Source: Flavobacteriales bacterium (GTDB taxonomy: Bacteria > Bacteroidota > Bacteroidia > Flavobacteriales > Flavobacteriaceae). From it: 64,000 nt of DNA. Shown piece by piece: positions 15,038 through 47,169 of this stretch. The number at the start of each line of letters is the position of its first letter. Position 1 is the first letter of the stretch. The notes under the pieces are model-generated. The model was not told the DNA's origin. It did no database searches and was given only the letters and a program-made list of their open reading frames with translations. The stretch is taken from the NCBI GenBank assembly GCA_004321735.1, contig SGZB01000001.1:1-64000 (forward strand). The letters run 5' to 3'. A program made the position numbers and the translations under genes.

Positions 15038-16066
15038 TTGAGTGTGTTTAAAAAACCACTTGCTTTAATTTTTTTAAGTTTATTTTTTAATTCACTCAAT
15101 TCTCAGTCTGGTTTAGAATCAATTCTAATTGCAGCTGAGCAAGATTCAAAAAAGATTTTTCAAGGTTATTTACAGCCAGCACTTAAGAGTTCTATATATT
15201 TAATGAATTCTGGGTGGTATACAACTGCAAAAGTTCATAAGAAATTAGGATTTGATTTGACTATTTCTCTTAACTCTGCGATTATTCCAAGTTCAGTTGA
15301 AACATTTGATATATCCAACCTAGAAATGATTACATCTGATTCTTCATCAATTTCAACTATTTTTGGAAATAATGAATCACATGAGTTGTATGTTGATATT
15401 CCTTCAGATGGATTGAGACCTGAGATTTCAACTTCATTTTTTTCCCCTAAAGGAATAAAAGAAAAGTTACCATTGGGAATGGTTTCCTCACCAGTAATTC
15501 AAGCGAGTGTTGGATTACCTCTTAAGTCAGAGATAACTTTAAGATACTTACCTGAGTATAGTAGGAATAATATTTACTTTTCAAATTATGGTATTGGATT
15601 TAAACATGATTTATTACAATATCTTAGTTTTTTAAAACGCATACCTACTTTAAATGTTTCTGCATTTGCTGCTTATTCAAAAATGAATATAGATTATGAT
15701 ATTCAATCCTCTGGTACTTTTTCAGGTACTAATCAAATGGCAAACTTCAATATTTCAAATTATAAACTTCAAATATTAAGTTCTATAAATCTTTCAATTT
15801 TTGAAATATATTCTGGAATAGGAGTTAATGGAGGTGATTCAAGTTTTAAAATTATTGGAGATTATGAAATTGAATATAATCTTAGGGACTCTGATATTCC
15901 ATATGTAGTGAATTTGAATGATCCAATTGATATAAATTACTCGATTCATGAATTTTCAAAAAACATTGGAATTAAATTTAAATTTCTGTTTCTTCATGCT
16001 TTTGTGGATTATACTTTTCAGGAATTTGATGTTGTAACAGCAGGTGTCTCACTTAACTTTAGGTAG
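15038..16066 (+). CDS. DUF6588-like outer-membrane protein
   Basis: The 342-residue protein starts at TTG (15038), with GTG two codons later as an alternative. It has a signal peptide ending near FNSLNSQ and the family-like opening SILIAAEQDSKKIFQGYLQPALKSSIYLMNSGWYTTAKVHKKLGFD. The alternating strands and the terminal aromatic-poor VSLNFR end are consistent with an outer-membrane barrel. The function is unknown. It follows the barrel gene by 12 bp and may share its transcript. Confidence 0.75.
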   Translation: MSVFKKPLALIFLSLFFNSLNSQSGLESILIAAEQDSKKIFQGYLQPALKSSIYLMNSGWYTTAKVHKKLGFDLTISLNSAIIPSSVETFDISNLEMITSDSSSISTIFGNNESHELYVDIPSDGLRPEISTSFFSPKGIKEKLPLGMVSSPVIQASVGLPLKSEITLRYLPEYSRNNIYFSNYGIGFKHDLLQYLSFLKRIPTLNVSAFAAYSKMNIDYDIQSSGTFSGTNQMANFNISNYKLQILSSINLSIFEIYSGIGVNGGDSSFKIIGDYEIEYNLRDSDIPYVVNLNDPIDINYSIHEFSKNIGIKFKFLFLHAFVDYTFQEFDVVTAGVSLNFR

Positions 16067-16094
16067 TGAAAACTGGGTTAATACATAGTTAATT

Positions 16095-16124
16095 TTGTTT
16101 TTTAAATTAAGTGATGTATTTTTG
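16095..16124 (+). promoter_or_regulatory. Promoter of the aromatic operon attenuator
   Basis: TTG at 16095-16097, exactly 19 bases, then TATTTTTG at 16117-16124 matches the complete Bacteroidetes consensus TTG-N19-TAnnTTTG. It places the transcription start within a few bases of the leader-peptide ATG at 16129, so the leader mRNA may be practically leaderless. Confidence 0.8.
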
Positions 16125-16128
16125 TTCT

Positions 16129-16200
16129 ATGATTAACAGATACAGCAATAATTTTTATTTCTTCTTTTACTATTTATATAAAAGCAGGATTTTTTGTTAG
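16129..16200 (+). CDS. Leader peptide of a Phe/Tyr attenuator (pheL-like)
   Basis: This is a 23-codon open frame, ATG to TAG, too short for usual gene calling. Five of its residues are Phe and five are Tyr, with the dense block NFYFFFYYLY at residues 8-17 (codons 16150-16179). It lies between an excellent promoter and a terminator in front of pheA-aminotransferase-tyrA. This is the classical arrangement of an attenuator leader peptide whose translation senses charged Phe-tRNA and Tyr-tRNA. The codons overlap the antiterminator segment near the stop codon, as the model needs. The call rests on sequence logic alone. Confidence 0.85.
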   Translation: MINRYSNNFYFFFYYLYKSRIFC

Positions 16201-16231
16201 TATCAATAAATATAATTTACAAAAAGTCCTG
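16185..16231 (+). promoter_or_regulatory. Antiterminator of the Phe/Tyr attenuator
   Basis: Bases 16185-16197 (CAGGATTTTTTGT) can pair over 13 consecutive positions with 16219-16231 (ACAAAAAGTCCTG); the only non-Watson-Crick pair is one U-G. This pairing consumes the left arm of the terminator hairpin, so the two structures exclude each other. A ribosome halted on the Phe/Tyr block leaves 16185-16197 free. A ribosome at the leader stop codon covers it and allows termination. Confidence 0.8.
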
Positions 16232-16251
16232 ATTTTCAGGACTTTTTTTTT
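16221..16251 (+). terminator. Intrinsic terminator (attenuator) upstream of pheA
   Basis: The core stem GTCCTGA / TCAGGAC (16226-16232 with 16236-16242) has a TTT loop. It is extended by five A-T pairs and followed by nine T residues ending five bases before the pheA ATG. The position directly in front of the first structural gene, not after a gene, marks it as a regulatory terminator. Confidence 0.9.
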
Positions 16252-16255
16252 GATT

Positions 16256-17071
16256 ATGAAAATAGCTATTCAAGGAATATTAGGGTCATATCATGATGAA
16301 GTAGCAAAGTTGCGTTTTGGTGATGATTCAAATATTATAGAATGTTCATCTTTTGACGCTCTGGTTGATTCAGTAAAAAATGAAGTTGCTGATATTGGAA
16401 TCATGGCTATTGAAAATTCCATTGCTGGGTCAATAATTCCTAATTATTCACTAATTGATAATTATGATTTGTCGATTATTGGAGAGTATTATATAAGTAT
16501 TAATCATCAGTTAATGGCATTGCCAGGAATTGATTTTAGTTCTATCGAAACAATTTCTTCACATCCAATGGCTTTATTACAATGTAAAGATTTCTTAAAA
16601 ACAACAGATAAAACTATAATTGAGAGCAAAGATACTGCAGAAGTTGCAAGAATGATTTCTGATGAAAAAATATCTACGACAGCGGCAATTGCAAGCCCGA
16701 AGGCAGCTGAAATTTATGGATTAGATATTTTGATGAATAATATTCAAACCATTAGTAATAATGAAACTAGATTTGTTTTTATTTCTAATAATGACAATAA
16801 AGATTTTCAGGATCTCAATAAAGCTTCATTAAAAATTATTTTAAGTCATGAAAGTGGAAGTTTAGCTAAAATTTTGAACATCTTTAATGACTACAATATC
16901 AATCTCACAAAAGTTCAATCAATTCCTGTCATTAAAACCCCATGGAAATATTCTTTTTTTATTGATCTTACTTTTAATAAAAGTGATGCTTTTATTAAAG
17001 CAATTGAGCTTGTAAAAAGAAATTCTGAATTTTTAAAAATTTTTGGTATTTATAAGAGTTTTAAAAAATGA
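16256..17071 (+). CDS. pheA: Prephenate dehydratase
   Basis: This enzyme converts prephenate to phenylpyruvate for Phe synthesis. The ATG at 16256 gives 271 residues; the upstream TTG at 16250 lies in the terminator T-run and is unlikely. The N-terminal dehydratase domain (IAIQGILGSYHDEVA, IENSIAGSI, SHPMALLQCKDFL, NNETRFVFIS) is followed by a C-terminal ACT domain (about 190-265) that normally binds Phe for feedback control. There is no fused chorismate mutase; that activity is on the DAHP synthase three genes downstream. It overlaps the aminotransferase gene by 4 bp (ATGA). Confidence 0.96.
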   Translation: MKIAIQGILGSYHDEVAKLRFGDDSNIIECSSFDALVDSVKNEVADIGIMAIENSIAGSIIPNYSLIDNYDLSIIGEYYISINHQLMALPGIDFSSIETISSHPMALLQCKDFLKTTDKTIIESKDTAEVARMISDEKISTTAAIASPKAAEIYGLDILMNNIQTISNNETRFVFISNNDNKDFQDLNKASLKIILSHESGSLAKILNIFNDYNINLTKVQSIPVIKTPWKYSFFIDLTFNKSDAFIKAIELVKRNSEFLKIFGIYKSFKK

Positions 17072-18213
17072 ATAAAGGAGCAGAAAGATTAAAATATATA
17101 GAAGAGTATTATTTCTCAAAGAAATTAAGAGAAGTAAAAGATCTTATAAATAATGGTGCTCCAATTATCAATATGGGAATAGGTAGTCCAGATTTAGATC
17201 CGCCTATTAGTGTAGTTAATTCAATTAAAGAGTCGTTAAAACATAAGAATGCTCATCAATATCAAAGCTATAGGGGAATTAATGATTTAAGATTAGAAAT
17301 TTCAAATTTCTACTCAAGATTTTACAATATAAAATTAAATGCTGATGAAAATATACTTCCCCTACTTGGATCTAAAGAAGGTATAATGCATATTTCACTC
17401 GCATTTTTAAATCCTGGAGATGAGGTTTTAATTCCAGATCCAGGATATCCTACTTATAGCTCTGTGACAAAAATAGTTGGTGCAACCCCTCGTTATTACA
17501 ATTTAAACTCAAAAAATAATTGGTATCCTGATATTGATAGTTTGCAGAGCTCAGATATATCAAAAGTCAAATTGATGTGGATTAATTACCCGCACATGCC
17601 AACAGGAACACCAGCCGAAATTAGTAAGTTAGAGGATATTGTTTCATTTACTCAAAAGAATAATATCATTTTAGTAAATGATAATCCATATAGTCAAATT
17701 CTTAATGATAATCCAGTAAGTATTTTAAATATAAATAACTCATTTAAAAACTGTTTAGAGTTGAATTCTCTCAGTAAAATGTTTAATATGGCTGGTTGGA
17801 GAGTTGGAATGGTATTAGGTTCAAAGGAACATATTGATAATATTTTAAAAATCAAATCTAATATGGATTCCGGAATGTTTTATGGAGTTCAAGTTGGTGC
17901 AATTAATGCACTAAAATCAGATAAAGATTGGTTTTTTAATCTTAACAATATTTATAAAAAAAGAAGAGAAATTATTTATAAAATATGTGATAAGCTCAAT
18001 TTAGAATATCGAAATGATTCAGTTGGAATGTTTGTTTGGGCTAAAATTAAAAATGAATCATCATCTGAAAAATTAAGTGATTTCCTTTTATATAAAAAAA
18101 ATATTTTTGTAGCTCCAGGATTTATTTTTGGTAGAAATGGTGAAGGTTATATAAGATTTTCACTATGTATTAATGAAGCTCAAATAAACAAAGCACTTAA
18201 AAGATTAACATGA
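17068..18213 (+). CDS. PLP-dependent aminotransferase, class I/II (probable aromatic aminotransferase)
   Basis: The 381-residue fold-type I aminotransferase has the PLP lysine in SLSKMFNMAGWRVG (Lys237) and NYPHMPTG (173-180) where most relatives read NYPNNPTG. Its position between pheA and tyrA, with 4-bp overlaps on both sides, indicates it supplies the last transamination step to Phe and Tyr. The sequence alone would also allow an aspartate- or LL-DAP-type enzyme, so the substrate is inferred from context. Confidence 0.9.
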   Translation: MNKGAERLKYIEEYYFSKKLREVKDLINNGAPIINMGIGSPDLDPPISVVNSIKESLKHKNAHQYQSYRGINDLRLEISNFYSRFYNIKLNADENILPLLGSKEGIMHISLAFLNPGDEVLIPDPGYPTYSSVTKIVGATPRYYNLNSKNNWYPDIDSLQSSDISKVKLMWINYPHMPTGTPAEISKLEDIVSFTQKNNIILVNDNPYSQILNDNPVSILNINNSFKNCLELNSLSKMFNMAGWRVGMVLGSKEHIDNILKIKSNMDSGMFYGVQVGAINALKSDKDWFFNLNNIYKKRREIIYKICDKLNLEYRNDSVGMFVWAKIKNESSSEKLSDFLLYKKNIFVAPGFIFGRNGEGYIRFSLCINEAQINKALKRLT

Positions 18214-19070
18214 AGATAGGAATAATAGGTCTTGGTTTAATGGGAGGATCCTTTTCAATTGAAATGAGGAGACTTTTTCCAAATTCATTAATTCTCGGAA
18301 ACGATATTTCTCAAATAAATATAAAATCAGCAAAAAGATTAGAACTCATCGATGATGTTTTTGAAGTTAATAATTTGTCTGGATTTGATATTGTTTTAAT
18401 TTCTGTTCCAGTTGATATCTCCCTTAAAATTGTAAATAGGGTTTTAGATCATGTTGCAGAGCATACGTTAGTTCTTGATGTTGGATCTACTAAGTTGCCA
18501 ATATGTAATGAAGTTCAGAATCATCCTAATAGACAAAATTTTTTAGCAATGCATCCAATTTCTGGAACTGAAAACAGTGGTCCAGATGCTTCAGTTAAAG
18601 GTTTGTATACGGGTATTACTAATATTGTTTGTGAAAAAGAAAAAACAGGATTAAAACAATACCAGTTGGCATTATCTATTTTTCAAAAATTAGAAATGAA
18701 AATTATTTATATGAATCCTAAAGTTCATGATCAGCATATTTCATATGTATCGCACTTATCACATATTACATCATTTATATTGGCAAAAACAGTTATTGAG
18801 AAAGAAATTGATGAAAAAAATATTTTCGATCTTGCAGGCAGTGGATTTGAATCAACTGTGAGGTTAGCCAAAAGTTCACCTGAAATGTGGTCTCCAATTT
18901 TTATACAAAATAAAAATTATATCGTTGAAGCTTTATCTGAATACATAGATAATTTAGAGGTTCTAAAACAAATGATATTAAAAAATGAAAATGAAGTGAT
19001 AATAAACGATTTAAATAATATAAATAGAATTAAGGAAATTTTATCAGGAATTAATAATAAAAGAAAATGA
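18210..19070 (+). CDS. tyrA: Prephenate dehydrogenase
   Basis: This enzyme oxidatively decarboxylates prephenate to 4-hydroxyphenylpyruvate for Tyr synthesis. The 286-residue protein starts with the dinucleotide-binding GLGLMGGSFS (residues 6-15) and has the TyrA markers LDVGSTKLPI, MHPISGTENSGPDAS and HVSHLSH-like VSHLSHITSFILA. There is no ACT domain or fused mutase. It overlaps both neighbours by 4 bp within the operon. Confidence 0.95.
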   Translation: MKIGIIGLGLMGGSFSIEMRRLFPNSLILGNDISQINIKSAKRLELIDDVFEVNNLSGFDIVLISVPVDISLKIVNRVLDHVAEHTLVLDVGSTKLPICNEVQNHPNRQNFLAMHPISGTENSGPDASVKGLYTGITNIVCEKEKTGLKQYQLALSIFQKLEMKIIYMNPKVHDQHISYVSHLSHITSFILAKTVIEKEIDEKNIFDLAGSGFESTVRLAKSSPEMWSPIFIQNKNYIVEALSEYIDNLEVLKQMILKNENEVIINDLNNINRIKEILSGINNKRK

Positions 19071-20149
19071 AAAACAACAAGAATTTAAGATTATGGTTAG
19101 ATGATTTTAATTTATCTCATCCACTAGTAATCGCGGGGCCATGCAGTGCTGAGACTGAAGACCAAATGCTAAACATTGCTAATCAGTTGAAAGATACTGA
19201 TGTTTCGGTTTTTAGAGCCGGAATATGGAAGCCTAGAACACGCCCAGGAATGTTTGAGGGTGTCGGCGCAATCGGATTAAAATGGTTAAAAAGAGTAAAA
19301 GATGAGACAGGTCTATTAACTTCAACAGAAGTTGCAAATGCAAATCATGTTAATCTAGCATTAGAAAATGATGTAGATATTTTATGGATTGGAGCAAGAT
19401 CAGCTGTAAGTCCATTTATAGTACAAGAAATTGCAGACTCTTTAAGAGGAACTGACAAGATAGTTCTTCTTAAAAATCCCGTGAACCCTGACCTTTCTCT
19501 TTGGTTTGGTGGAGTTGAAAGGTTATATAGCGCTGATATAAAAAAAATAGGAGTAATTCATAGAGGTTTTTCAACTTCCTCAAAATCTAAATTTAGAAAT
19601 AATCCTGAGTGGCAAATAGCTATTGAGTTTCAGAATAAATTTCCAGATATTCCACTTATTTGTGATCCTTCACATATTTGTGGTAGAAGAGATTTAATTC
19701 ATGATGTTTCTCAAAAGTCATTGGATTTAAATTTTGACGGATTGATGATTGAAACTCATGTTGATCCAGATAGTGCTTGGAGTGATGCTGCTCAACAAAT
19801 TACACCATCAACACTAATTCAATTAATGAAAGAATTAAAAATTAGAAGAGGTAATTTTCAAGAAGAGGATTATATAAAGAAGCTTTCAAAGTATAGAGCA
19901 AAGATTGATATGATTGATAATGATCTAGTTGAAATTTTAGGAAAAAGAATGAATCTTTCTGATAAAATTGGAAAACTTAAAAAGGATAAAAATGTTGCTG
20001 TTTTACAATCAAAAAGATGGAACGAAATTTTGGGTAAAATGATTTTAGAGGGAAAAGATAATGGCTTAAGTGAAGAGTTTGTTTTACAAATTTTTAAGGC
20101 AATACATCAAGAATCAATCAATCATCAAAATAAGATTTTGAAAAATTAA
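19067..20149 (+). CDS. Bifunctional 3-deoxy-7-phosphoheptulonate synthase / chorismate mutase
   Basis: The protein performs the first step of the shikimate pathway (DAHP from PEP and erythrose-4-phosphate) and the branch step chorismate to prephenate. Residues about 10-265 are the class I, KDPG-like DAHP synthase domain (LVIAGPCSAE, FRAGIWKPRTRPG, DPSHICGRR). Residues about 275-358 are an AroQ-type helical mutase (YRAKIDMIDNDLVEILGKRM, IGKLKKDKN). This fusion is characteristic of Bacteroidetes. The mutase domain probably also serves as the sensor for feedback by prephenate or chorismate, as in related fusions (family knowledge). Confidence 0.95.
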   Translation: MKNNKNLRLWLDDFNLSHPLVIAGPCSAETEDQMLNIANQLKDTDVSVFRAGIWKPRTRPGMFEGVGAIGLKWLKRVKDETGLLTSTEVANANHVNLALENDVDILWIGARSAVSPFIVQEIADSLRGTDKIVLLKNPVNPDLSLWFGGVERLYSADIKKIGVIHRGFSTSSKSKFRNNPEWQIAIEFQNKFPDIPLICDPSHICGRRDLIHDVSQKSLDLNFDGLMIETHVDPDSAWSDAAQQITPSTLIQLMKELKIRRGNFQEEDYIKKLSKYRAKIDMIDNDLVEILGKRMNLSDKIGKLKKDKNVAVLQSKRWNEILGKMILEGKDNGLSEEFVLQIFKAIHQESINHQNKILKN

Positions 20150-21069
20150 TGAAAGGTCACATTTATAAATCTACAGGTAGTTGGTATACTGTTAAAATTG
20201 ATGCCGGTAAATTTATTGAATGTAGACTTTCAGGTAGGTTAAGAGTTGATGGAATTAAATCAACGAATCCTGTGTGTGTTGGAGATTATGTTTTAATTGA
20301 AAAAAGAGTTGATTCGTATGTTGTTAAAAAACTTTTAGAAAGAAAAAACTTTATAATTAGAAAATCAGTAAAACTCTCAAAACAATATCACATAATTGCA
20401 TCTAATATTGATATTTGTTTTTTACTAGTAACTCCCAAGAATCCAGTAACATCAACAATGTTTATTGATAGATTTTTAGCATCAACTCTCTCATATGGAA
20501 TTGAAACTGTTATAGTTTTTAATAAGATTGATCAATATGATAAAGAATCAATGAATCAAAAAAATGAAATCGACAATATTTATAAAAAAGCTGGATATAA
20601 AACAATTTCAATTTCAGCTTTAAAAAAAAGTAATCTTTCAGATTTATTAAAACTTATGCAAAACAAAGTTTGTGTTTTTTCAGGTCATAGTGGAGTAGGA
20701 AAATCAACACTTTTAAATTCTCTTGATGATAATTTATCAATCAAAACACTACCAATTTCTGAGTCAAAGAAATCAGGACAGCATACTACAACTTTTTCTG
20801 AAATGTATGATCTTAAAAAAAATATAAAGGTTATTGATACGCCAGGAATAAAAGGATTTGGATTATATAACATTAACAATAATGAATTAAGCGATTATTT
20901 CTTAGAGTTTAGAAATGGTCCTAGTTGTAAATTTCATAATTGTATTCATAAAAAAGAGCCAGGATGTGTTATTAAAAAAGAAATAGAGAATGGAAATATA
21001 TCTAAAAGTAGATATTCAAATTATCTATTACTTTTAGAGGAAATTAATAATGAAACAAGTTTCAGATGA
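20149..21069 (+). CDS. rsgA: Ribosome small-subunit-dependent GTPase A
   Basis: RsgA is a circularly permuted GTPase that acts late in 30S subunit maturation. The order is visible: an N-terminal OB-fold (about 1-65), G4 NKID at 125-128 ahead of G1 GHSGVGKST at 179-187, then DTPGIKGFGL. The C-terminal zinc cluster is complete (CKFHNCIHKKEPGC), in contrast to the zinc-less DnaG and AccD in this window. It has a 1-bp overlap with the upstream gene and no obvious metabolic link to aromatic synthesis. Confidence 0.95.
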   Translation: MKGHIYKSTGSWYTVKIDAGKFIECRLSGRLRVDGIKSTNPVCVGDYVLIEKRVDSYVVKKLLERKNFIIRKSVKLSKQYHIIASNIDICFLLVTPKNPVTSTMFIDRFLASTLSYGIETVIVFNKIDQYDKESMNQKNEIDNIYKKAGYKTISISALKKSNLSDLLKLMQNKVCVFSGHSGVGKSTLLNSLDDNLSIKTLPISESKKSGQHTTTFSEMYDLKKNIKVIDTPGIKGFGLYNINNNELSDYFLEFRNGPSCKFHNCIHKKEPGCVIKKEIENGNISKSRYSNYLLLLEEINNETSFR

Positions 21070-21518
21070 AAGCTGTTATACAGAGAGTTAGTCACTCTAA
21101 ATTAAAAGTTGATAAATCCTTATTTAGTGAAATTGGATTTGGTCTAATGATTCTTCTAGGTATTACTCATGATGATAATTTAGAAGATTTGGTATGGTTG
21201 GCAAAAAAAGTAGCTCATTTGAGAATTTTTGATGATGAAGATGGTGTTATGAATAAGTCCGTTATGGATGTAGATGGAGAAATACAAGTAGTTAGCCAAT
21301 TTACCCTATTTGCTTTAACAAAAAAGGGAAATAGACCATCCTACATCAATGCTGCTAAAGGTGATTTTGCTGAGAAAATGTATAATAATTTTATTAAAGA
21401 ACTTCAGAAATATCTAAATAAAAATATTAAAACAGGTAAATTTGGGTATAACATGAGTATAGATTTTGAAAATCTGGGACCTGTTACAATTATAATAGAT
21501 TCAAAAAATAAGATTTAA
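21066..21518 (+). CDS. dtd: D-aminoacyl-tRNA deacylase (Dtd)
   Basis: Dtd removes D-amino acids (classically D-Tyr) from mischarged tRNA. The 150-residue protein is full length, with SQFTL at residues 77-81, GNRPSY at 88-93 and the cross-subunit Gly-Pro motif GPVT at 138-141. Its 4-bp overlap with rsgA and place inside an operon that makes Tyr suggests co-expression with aromatic supply. Confidence 0.96.
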   Translation: MKAVIQRVSHSKLKVDKSLFSEIGFGLMILLGITHDDNLEDLVWLAKKVAHLRIFDDEDGVMNKSVMDVDGEIQVVSQFTLFALTKKGNRPSYINAAKGDFAEKMYNNFIKELQKYLNKNIKTGKFGYNMSIDFENLGPVTIIIDSKNKI

Positions 21519-21519
21519 T

Positions 21520-21846
21520 ATGGAGTTAAAAGAAATGCAAAATATAGTTGATCAATGGATTAAAAAGTATGGTGTCAGATATTTTAATGAATTGACAAAT
21601 ATGGCTCAATTAACTGAAGAGGTTGGTGAAGTTGCAAGGATAATTTCAAGAGTTTATGGAGAACAGTCTGTTAAAAAAGGTCAAGAATTAAATAATTTAG
21701 GTGAAGAACTTGCAGACGTTTTATTTGTTTTAATTTGTTTGGCAAATCAGACAGGTGTGGATTTAGAGAAAGAATTCAAAAAAAAATTAGAAAAAAAAAC
21801 TGTGAGAGATGAAAAGCGCCATTTATCTAACAGTAAGCTGAAATGA
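21520..21846 (+). CDS. MazG-like nucleotide pyrophosphohydrolase
   Basis: The 108-residue all-helical protein has the metal-binding pattern of the MazG/dUTPase-like group: LTEEVGEVARIISRVYGEQS followed by LGEELADVLFVLICLAN (EExxE then ExxD). It is a single short MazG domain, as in house-cleaning enzymes that hydrolyse non-canonical NTPs. The natural substrate is unknown. It sits between dtd and aroA, with a 4-bp overlap into aroA. Confidence 0.9.
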   Translation: MELKEMQNIVDQWIKKYGVRYFNELTNMAQLTEEVGEVARIISRVYGEQSVKKGQELNNLGEELADVLFVLICLANQTGVDLEKEFKKKLEKKTVRDEKRHLSNSKLK

Positions 21847-23072
21847 ACATAGTTTTTATTTGTCCTTCCAACATAAAATCCAACTCTGAAATTTCAATTA
21901 CAGGATCAAAAAGTGAATCAAATAGATTACTAATAATAAATGCACTATATAGTAATACAAAACTATTGAATCTATCGAACTCTGATGATACAAAAGTTTT
22001 AACTAAAGCTTTATCAAATTTAAATGGTCAAACAGATATTCATCATGCTGGTACTGCAATGAGATTTTTAACAGCATTTTTAGCTCAAATTGAGGACAGA
22101 GAATTTGTAATTACTGGTTCAGCTAGAATGCAAGAAAGACCAATAGGAATTTTAGTTGACTCATTAAATGAATTAGGATTTGAAGTAAGATATTTAGATA
22201 AAAAGGGATTTCCACCTCTTAAAATTATAGGAAAAAAAAGTATTAAATCTGAAATTAAACTCGATTCTACCGTGAGTAGTCAATATGTATCTGCTTTGAT
22301 GTTAATAGCTCCATCACTTGAAAATGGCTTAAAAATTATTTTGGAAGGTCAAATAATCTCAAAGCCATATATCAACCTTACATTAAATATTTTAAAAAAG
22401 ATAGGGGTAAAGTGTAGTTTTAAAAAAAATATTATAGAAATAAAAAATCATTCTAAATCCAAAATATCTCAATACACAGTTGAATCTGATTGGAGTTCAG
22501 CATCGTACTTTTATTCAATTGTTTCATTGTTAGATAATACTACAATTATACTCTCAAGTTTTTTTGACAATTCTTTTCAGGGAGACAGCAAGGTGTCTAA
22601 GATTTATGAATCATTTGGTGTAAATACTACATATAAAGAAAATACTATACGTTTAACTAAAATGGAAAATTACTCTAAACCAGATTCTTTAGAGTTTGAT
22701 TTATTAGAAAACCCAGATTTAGCTCAGACCATTTCTGTTACCGCTCTCTGTATGGGTATTCCATTAGTTTTAAATGGATTACAAACATTAAAAATAAAAG
22801 AGACTGATAGAATTATTGCTCTTAAAAATGAATTGTCAAAGTTGGGTGCTAATGTTGTTTACAATGACAATTCGATTTCTATTAATCCTCCTGATAAGCT
22901 AAATGAAAATGTGAATATTAAAACTTACGATGATCACCGAATGGCTCTTTCATTTTCAACAGTTGGATTAATAACACCTATATATATTGAGGATTATAAT
23001 GTTGTATCAAAATCTTACCCTGATTATTGGTCAGATTTAAAGTCTATTGGATTTAATATTGAATTTCAATAA
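21843..23072 (+). CDS. aroA: 3-phosphoshikimate 1-carboxyvinyltransferase (EPSP synthase)
   Basis: This enzyme catalyses the sixth shikimate-pathway step. The 409-residue protein shows GSKSESNRLLI at the N-terminus, HHAGTAMRFLTAFLA, MQERPIG, and the C-terminal KIKETDRI and YDDHRMALSFS motifs. The N-terminal region is somewhat divergent compared with well-known forms, and the protein is shorter than the E. coli enzyme (427 residues), but all signature motifs are present. It is the last gene of the aromatic operon. Confidence 0.95.
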   Translation: MNIVFICPSNIKSNSEISITGSKSESNRLLIINALYSNTKLLNLSNSDDTKVLTKALSNLNGQTDIHHAGTAMRFLTAFLAQIEDREFVITGSARMQERPIGILVDSLNELGFEVRYLDKKGFPPLKIIGKKSIKSEIKLDSTVSSQYVSALMLIAPSLENGLKIILEGQIISKPYINLTLNILKKIGVKCSFKKNIIEIKNHSKSKISQYTVESDWSSASYFYSIVSLLDNTTIILSSFFDNSFQGDSKVSKIYESFGVNTTYKENTIRLTKMENYSKPDSLEFDLLENPDLAQTISVTALCMGIPLVLNGLQTLKIKETDRIIALKNELSKLGANVVYNDNSISINPPDKLNENVNIKTYDDHRMALSFSTVGLITPIYIEDYNVVSKSYPDYWSDLKSIGFNIEFQ

Positions 23073-47095: not shown

Positions 47096-47169
47096 GGCCA
47101 AGTAGTTCAACTGGATAGAACATCAGATTTCGGCTCTGGCGGTTGAGGGTTCGAATCCTTCCTTGGTCA
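47096..47169 (+). tRNA. tRNA-Arg (anticodon UCG)
   Basis: This 74-nt cloverleaf has the acceptor stem GGCCAAG / CTTGGTC with one G-T pair, D-arm GTTC/GAAC, anticodon stem TCAGA/TCTGG with loop TTTCGGC (anticodon TCG at 47130-47132), and T-arm GAGGG/CCTTC with TTCGAAT. The discriminator is A; the CCA end is not encoded. It reads CGA codons. It lies 8 bp after yqeY and 6 bp from the convergent MATE gene. Confidence 0.93.

Follow-up and report, generated by a model that had tools for sequence, protein, structure and literature searches.

Attenuation in bacteria was treated by Lopatovskaya et al. 2010, as cited in PMC4833913. In a survey from 2013 (PMC3766115), it was proposed that amino-acid attenuators may have originated in gamma-proteobacteria and undergone few transfers. 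The description closest to the locus of this study comes from the transcriptome of Flavobacterium psychrophilum (ISME Commun 2021, PMC9723704). There, a structured 5' element was reported upstream of pheA, conserved in Flavobacteriaceae and without a match in Rfam, together with strong signs that operons for amino-acid biosynthesis are preceded by leader-peptide attenuators. The element described here is likewise structured, conserved and placed upstream of pheA. Unlike here, the main text of that paper does not describe the codons, the pairing and the specificity of the pheA leader. Nothing closer was found in literature searches. A first-pass annotation of the present DNA knew of no described example in this lineage, which has to be corrected, because the related element had already been noticed in F. 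psychrophilum. The system is already known in part, i.e., as the conserved structured 5' element and the clues for attenuation in that species. What appears to be new is the combined Phe/Tyr design with its wide distribution, the covariation and the near-leaderless start that is predicted. It is a known kind of switch that has been little described in Bacteroidota.

The window, i.e., the whole analysed stretch of 64,000 nucleotides, belongs to a small draft genome (1.15 Mb, 78% complete). The nearest named records to this genome are uncultured marine Flavobacteriaceae and 'Cryomorphaceae', e.g., MED851 and BACL29. The gene pheA was assigned at positions 16256 to 17071 of the forward strand, on which the parts of the leader and the operon are located, by the Pfam PDT and ACT domains of a prephenate dehydratase. 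It is followed at 17068 to 23072 by the rest of a putative operon, whose ORFs overlap or adjoin. In Pfam search, these were a class I/II aminotransferase, tyrA (prephenate dehydrogenase), a DAHP synthase fused to chorismate mutase, rsgA, dtd, a MazG-like gene and aroA, in this order. Because the operon holds pheA, tyrA and further aromatic genes, both branches, to Phe and to Tyr, would be served by a single transcript. Within the operon, rsgA and the MazG-like gene flank the dtd gene for D-Tyr-tRNA deacylase (21066 to 21518), and this position may possibly reflect a link to tyrosine. The gene upstream of the leader encodes a DUF6588 protein (15038 to 16066) on the same strand.

A promoter of the Bacteroidota -33/-7 type was read directly at 16094 to 16124. 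The consensus of these promoters is TTTG-N19-TAnnTTTG. The window has TTTG at 16094 to 16097, a spacer of 19 bases and TATTTTTG at 16117 to 16124, which is a perfect match, as the first-pass annotation had said. The -7 box of the consensus is also found in PMC9723704. Similar boxes precede the leader ORF in most relatives. The promoter was missed by an E. coli-type promoter scan, which does not cover the Bacteroidota consensus. At promoters of this type, transcription starts about 4 to 5 bases behind the box. The distance from the box to the leader ATG is four bases in the window and 5 to 7 bases in the same-genus leaders that were printed; therefore, the leader mRNA is predicted to be leaderless or nearly so in this genus, with the ORF starting at most about 2 nt from the transcript 5' end. 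A leaderless start as a general rule was ruled out by the median distance of 16 bases over the strong-promoter loci. Leaderless mRNAs are rare in Flavobacteriaceae, i.e., 5.5% in F. psychrophilum (PMC9723704).

The leader ORF at 16129 to 16200, also read directly, encodes the 23 amino acids MINRYSNNFYFFFYYLYKSRIFC, with 5 Phe and 5 Tyr and the block NFYFFFYYLY. The regulatory codon block, delimited with the stall scan described below, runs from F9 to Y17 (16153 to 16179), and the F/Y block is conserved in relatives. Segment 2, the left arm of the antiterminator, lies inside leader codons 19 to 23 (16185 to 16197). Segment 3 (16219 to 16232) is the right arm of the antiterminator and the left arm of the terminator, and 16185 to 16197 can pair with 16219 to 16231 at 13 of 13 positions, including one G.U pair. 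The intrinsic terminator, recognized by terminator scan at 16221 to 16251, is composed of a hairpin of 12 pairs with a loop of 3 (16221 to 16247) and nine T (16243 to 16251), five in the stem and four after it. The ATG of pheA follows at 16256, and a terminator upstream of pheA is conserved in relatives. RNA folding and the stall scan also predicted a weak hairpin between segments 1 and 2 (16159 to 16189), formed by the run of Phe codons and the 5' part of the antiterminator left arm. A ribosome on the F/Y block would open this hairpin. The frame with its 5 Phe and 5 Tyr, the 13-position pairing and the terminator with its nine T had all been pointed out in the first-pass annotation, whose observation holds to the base. 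Two hallmarks of the attenuator class, i.e., a short ORF rich in codons for the products of the operon and an intrinsic terminator between the leader ORF and pheA, were found in this region.

The predicted RNA energy of 16129 to 16253 was -24.7 kcal/mol (z = -3.67), so this region is more stable than its shuffles. Chance occurrence was estimated from 15 dinucleotide shuffles of the 64-kb window on both strands. ORFs with at least 7 F/Y in 10 codons occurred 0.53 times per shuffle on average, and none of those in the 15 shuffles had a terminator behind it. In the real window, a single ORF of this kind was followed by a terminator, i.e., the pheA leader. The 15 shuffles never gave an ORF with at least 8 F/Y in 10 codons, and the pheA leader is therefore not considered a product of chance.

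A search of 149 genomes of the family Flavobacteriaceae, one per genus, gave PheA in 130. The DNA upstream of pheA was read in 128 other genera of the family, and in 123 of them an ORF with at least 6 F/Y in 10 codons and a terminator were present. No Phe/Tyr leader with a terminator was found upstream of pheA in the other 5 of the 128 (L041, L086, L094, L095, and L130). G+C-rich coding-like DNA lies upstream of pheA in L086, and the L130 locus is near the contig start. The F/Y-rich ORF and the terminator were found in all 15 same-genus genomes and in 68 of 80 named relatives, including Aquimarina, Mesonia, Salegentibacter, Zunongwangia, Wenyingzhuangia and Polaribacter. Outside the order, both were present in about half of the class members checked, and outside the class in two genomes of the phylum (L292 and L296). 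No leader was found at the loci of Algoriphagus, Belliella and Rhodonellum, nor in the order's reduced genomes of 600 kb (L148-L151), which keep pheA.

The neighbours of the leader bear on a simpler reading, i.e., that the hairpin merely terminates the upstream DUF6588 gene and that A+T-rich DNA has produced the F/Y-rich frame by chance. The region is indeed A+T-rich, and the DUF6588 ORF ends on the same strand 155 bases before the hairpin. However, a promoter is placed between that gene and the hairpin. The upstream gene is common to only 3 of 124 loci, whereas the downstream aminotransferase is common to 120 of 124; the element thus belongs to pheA, and on this ground the reading as a terminator of the upstream gene was rejected. 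The F/Y content is also specific to one frame, the pairing arms carry matched base changes, and the window shuffles gave no F/Y-rich ORF with a terminator. With all these points against it, this reading is extremely improbable.

The composition of the leader peptide was compared in 161 leaders. Each has at least two Phe and at least two Tyr, in a set that was picked for Phe plus Tyr content with Tyr as such never demanded, and 90 of them have Trp too. The F/Y content of the block is 0.73 in frame versus 0.21 and 0.28 in the other frames. At the block positions Phe and Tyr are exchanged freely, both synonymous codons of each are in use, Trp also replaces them in part, and almost no position is fixed. 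The last block positions most often hold Phe. In 90% of the loci, the stop codon lies 20 to 36 bases and the block end 43 to 61 bases before the terminator.

Such a narrow range of distances could also be expected of a TnaC-like arrest peptide, the nascent chain of which would bind free Phe or Tyr in the ribosome, and aromatic-rich nascent chains can slow ribosomes. However, known arrest peptides need particular residues, and here Phe, Tyr and partly Trp interchange across a block in which hardly any position is kept. It is therefore very unlikely that the leader acts as an arrest peptide.

The alternative pairing was compared between loci, in which segment 2 lies at or close to the 3' end of the leader ORF. 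Pairing of segment 2 with its own segment 3 had a mean energy of -12.2 kcal/mol, versus -8.4 kcal/mol with segment 3 of other loci, and the own pairing was better than the own swapped mean in 157 of 162 loci; segment 2 was located by complementarity, which favours pairing, and the swap control corrects for this, while shared ancestry remains. The definition of segment 2 by the longest contiguous pairing gave U-rich false pairs in a few loci (e.g., L025 and L080), and anchored heptamers were therefore used for column counts. Within a heptamer, the own arm pairs with 6.11 of the 7 bases, versus 5.59 (sd 0.04) for swapped arms. One core position of segments 2 and 3 is G-C in 78 loci and A-U in 74, and it is unpaired in 3 of 160. 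Divergent loci keep the pairing with other bases, e.g., GACCGCT/AGCGGTC, ATCCCGC/GCGGGA and AACCCGG/CCGGGTT. The core of segment 3 changes at least 30 times on the PheA tree. Independent pairs at two columns gave 3 to 4 changes in the same way each and none in the opposite way, and the sign tests were not significant alone. Base changes in the segment that encodes the peptide C-terminus match those in the left terminator arm, and the antiterminator and terminator pairings are thus both conserved. An antiterminator that excludes the terminator, a further hallmark of the attenuator class, is thus kept by matched changes, with few independent events. The comparison with relatives that the first-pass annotation had proposed as a check found both the Phe/Tyr-rich frame and the alternative pairing conserved.

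For the transcript start, the termination efficiency and the starvation response, we infer the following course. RNA polymerase would start at about 16129, and the leader ORF, at or close to the 5' end, would be entered by a ribosome immediately. With ample charged Phe-tRNA and Tyr-tRNA, this ribosome would reach the stop codon and cover segment 2. Segment 3 would then pair with segment 4 to form the terminator, and transcription would stop before pheA. When Phe or Tyr is scarce, the ribosome would wait at codons 11 to 15 and leave segment 2 free, which would pair with segment 3 while segment 4 is still to be transcribed. The terminator would not form, and the operon would be transcribed. In a leader without a ribosome, the weak hairpin of segments 1 and 2 would hide segment 2, and termination would be favoured again.

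The effect of the stall position was modelled in the stall scan, in which the leading edge of the ribosome was set 15 nt downstream of the first P-site base. By the codon in the A site, the predicted antitermination was 0.38 for F11, 0.74 for F12, 0.80 for F13, 0.75 for Y14 and 0.84 for Y15, i.e., for codons at 16159 to 16173. No codon before F11 reached 0.1, and the value was about zero at L16 and beyond, with almost none at F9, Y10 and Y17. A ribosome that stalls before F11 probably leaves the run of Phe codons free to pair with the beginning of segment 2, which would explain why such stalls fail. Antitermination that is predicted only for stalls from Phe11 to Tyr15 supports ribosome-stalling attenuation sensing Phe and Tyr. 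In the scan of 162 loci, the highest predicted antitermination lies at the last codons of the F/Y block, with zero two to three codons later, and F/Y/W codons score above others in 155 loci; the geometry and the codon choice therefore fit each other. In the model, a ribosome at the regulatory codons frees the antiterminator arm and one at the stop codon covers it, as is typical of the attenuator class. The predicted maximum exceeded 0.3 in 53 of the 162 loci, and the equilibrium model favours the terminator in most; therefore, the switch would need the kinetic lead that segment 3 has before segment 4.

The stall scan also bears on the question of specificity. Enteric pheA leaders use Phe alone, and together with the prevalence of Phe at the last block positions this could mean that the attenuator senses only Phe, with the Tyr codons as passengers. 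The first-pass annotation had also expected stalls at Phe codons to work best, which was slightly wrong. Stalls at Y14 and Y15 are as effective as those at Phe codons in the model, so that Tyr carries the same weight as Phe. Tyr is also a product of the operon, through tyrA, and none of the 161 leaders, picked for Phe plus Tyr content, has fewer than two Tyr codons. Sensing of Phe alone is thus unlikely. From its parts, conservation, matched base changes and codon window, all obtained by computation, the pheA leader is with high confidence predicted to be a transcription attenuator that works by ribosome stalling and responds to Phe as well as to Tyr. The ribosome-stalling mechanism put forward in the first-pass annotation is accordingly supported by the conserved parts, the matched changes and the stall scan.

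Among the known RNA families, the Rfam model RF01859 (Phe_leader) gave 17.1 bits (E = 1.6) versus a gathering threshold of 55 bits. The pheA leader works like Phe_leader in its modelled design, yet it is no member of the RF01859 model, and no Rfam family fits it at gathering or relaxed thresholds. No T-box or riboswitch match was found, and at gathering level Rfam gave a single match for the whole window, a tRNA at 47096.

Leaders of the same layout precede other amino-acid genes in related DNA. The same-genus trpE leader has a terminator and an FWW-containing peptide with tandem Trp, and differs from the pheA leader in its amino acids. Five genomes of the genus (L277, L278, L279, L281, and L282) have leader ORFs such as MNNRFKFWWHFMKFRLLSL and, immediately before trpE, a terminator. 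In the own genome (L194), a terminator is present before trpE, and the upstream DNA is too short to show a leader. The hisG leader of the own genome has the same layout for another amino acid, with an HRHHH leader and a terminator. Upstream of hisG on contig C14 (L287), the leader ORF MLNKLHRHHHLLNLNLRRDM is followed by a terminator 14 bases before hisG. The leader MLNKLHRHHHLLNLNLRRDM is probably a His attenuator.

The enteric pheA leader (RF01859) and the trp, his, ilv and thr leaders of gamma-proteobacteria likewise have an ORF with regulatory codons, an antiterminator and a terminator that exclude each other, and a weak 1:2 hairpin. Mixed regulatory codons are known from ilv and thr leaders. 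In contrast to the gamma-proteobacterial leaders, the flavobacterial leader mixes Phe and Tyr, often with Trp, and its operon serves both branches. It also differs in its Bacteroidota promoter, the lack of a Shine-Dalgarno sequence and the very short predicted 5' end. The breadth of the attenuator predicts which operons respond to Phe and Tyr, and the attenuator lends itself to simple reporter tests in a phylum whose translation starts without Shine-Dalgarno pairing. Because far more than a hundred genera of Bacteroidota have the switch at the same place, attenuators seem to be used much more widely than a gamma-proteobacterial origin with few transfers would suggest. In our judgement it is about as likely as not that a bivalent Phe/Tyr attenuator, read by ribosomes from the extreme 5' end without a Shine-Dalgarno sequence, is an ancient feature of Bacteroidota that was not acquired from gamma-proteobacteria, and that these small-genome marine flavobacteria, which also have trp and his leaders, may control amino-acid synthesis mainly by attenuation.
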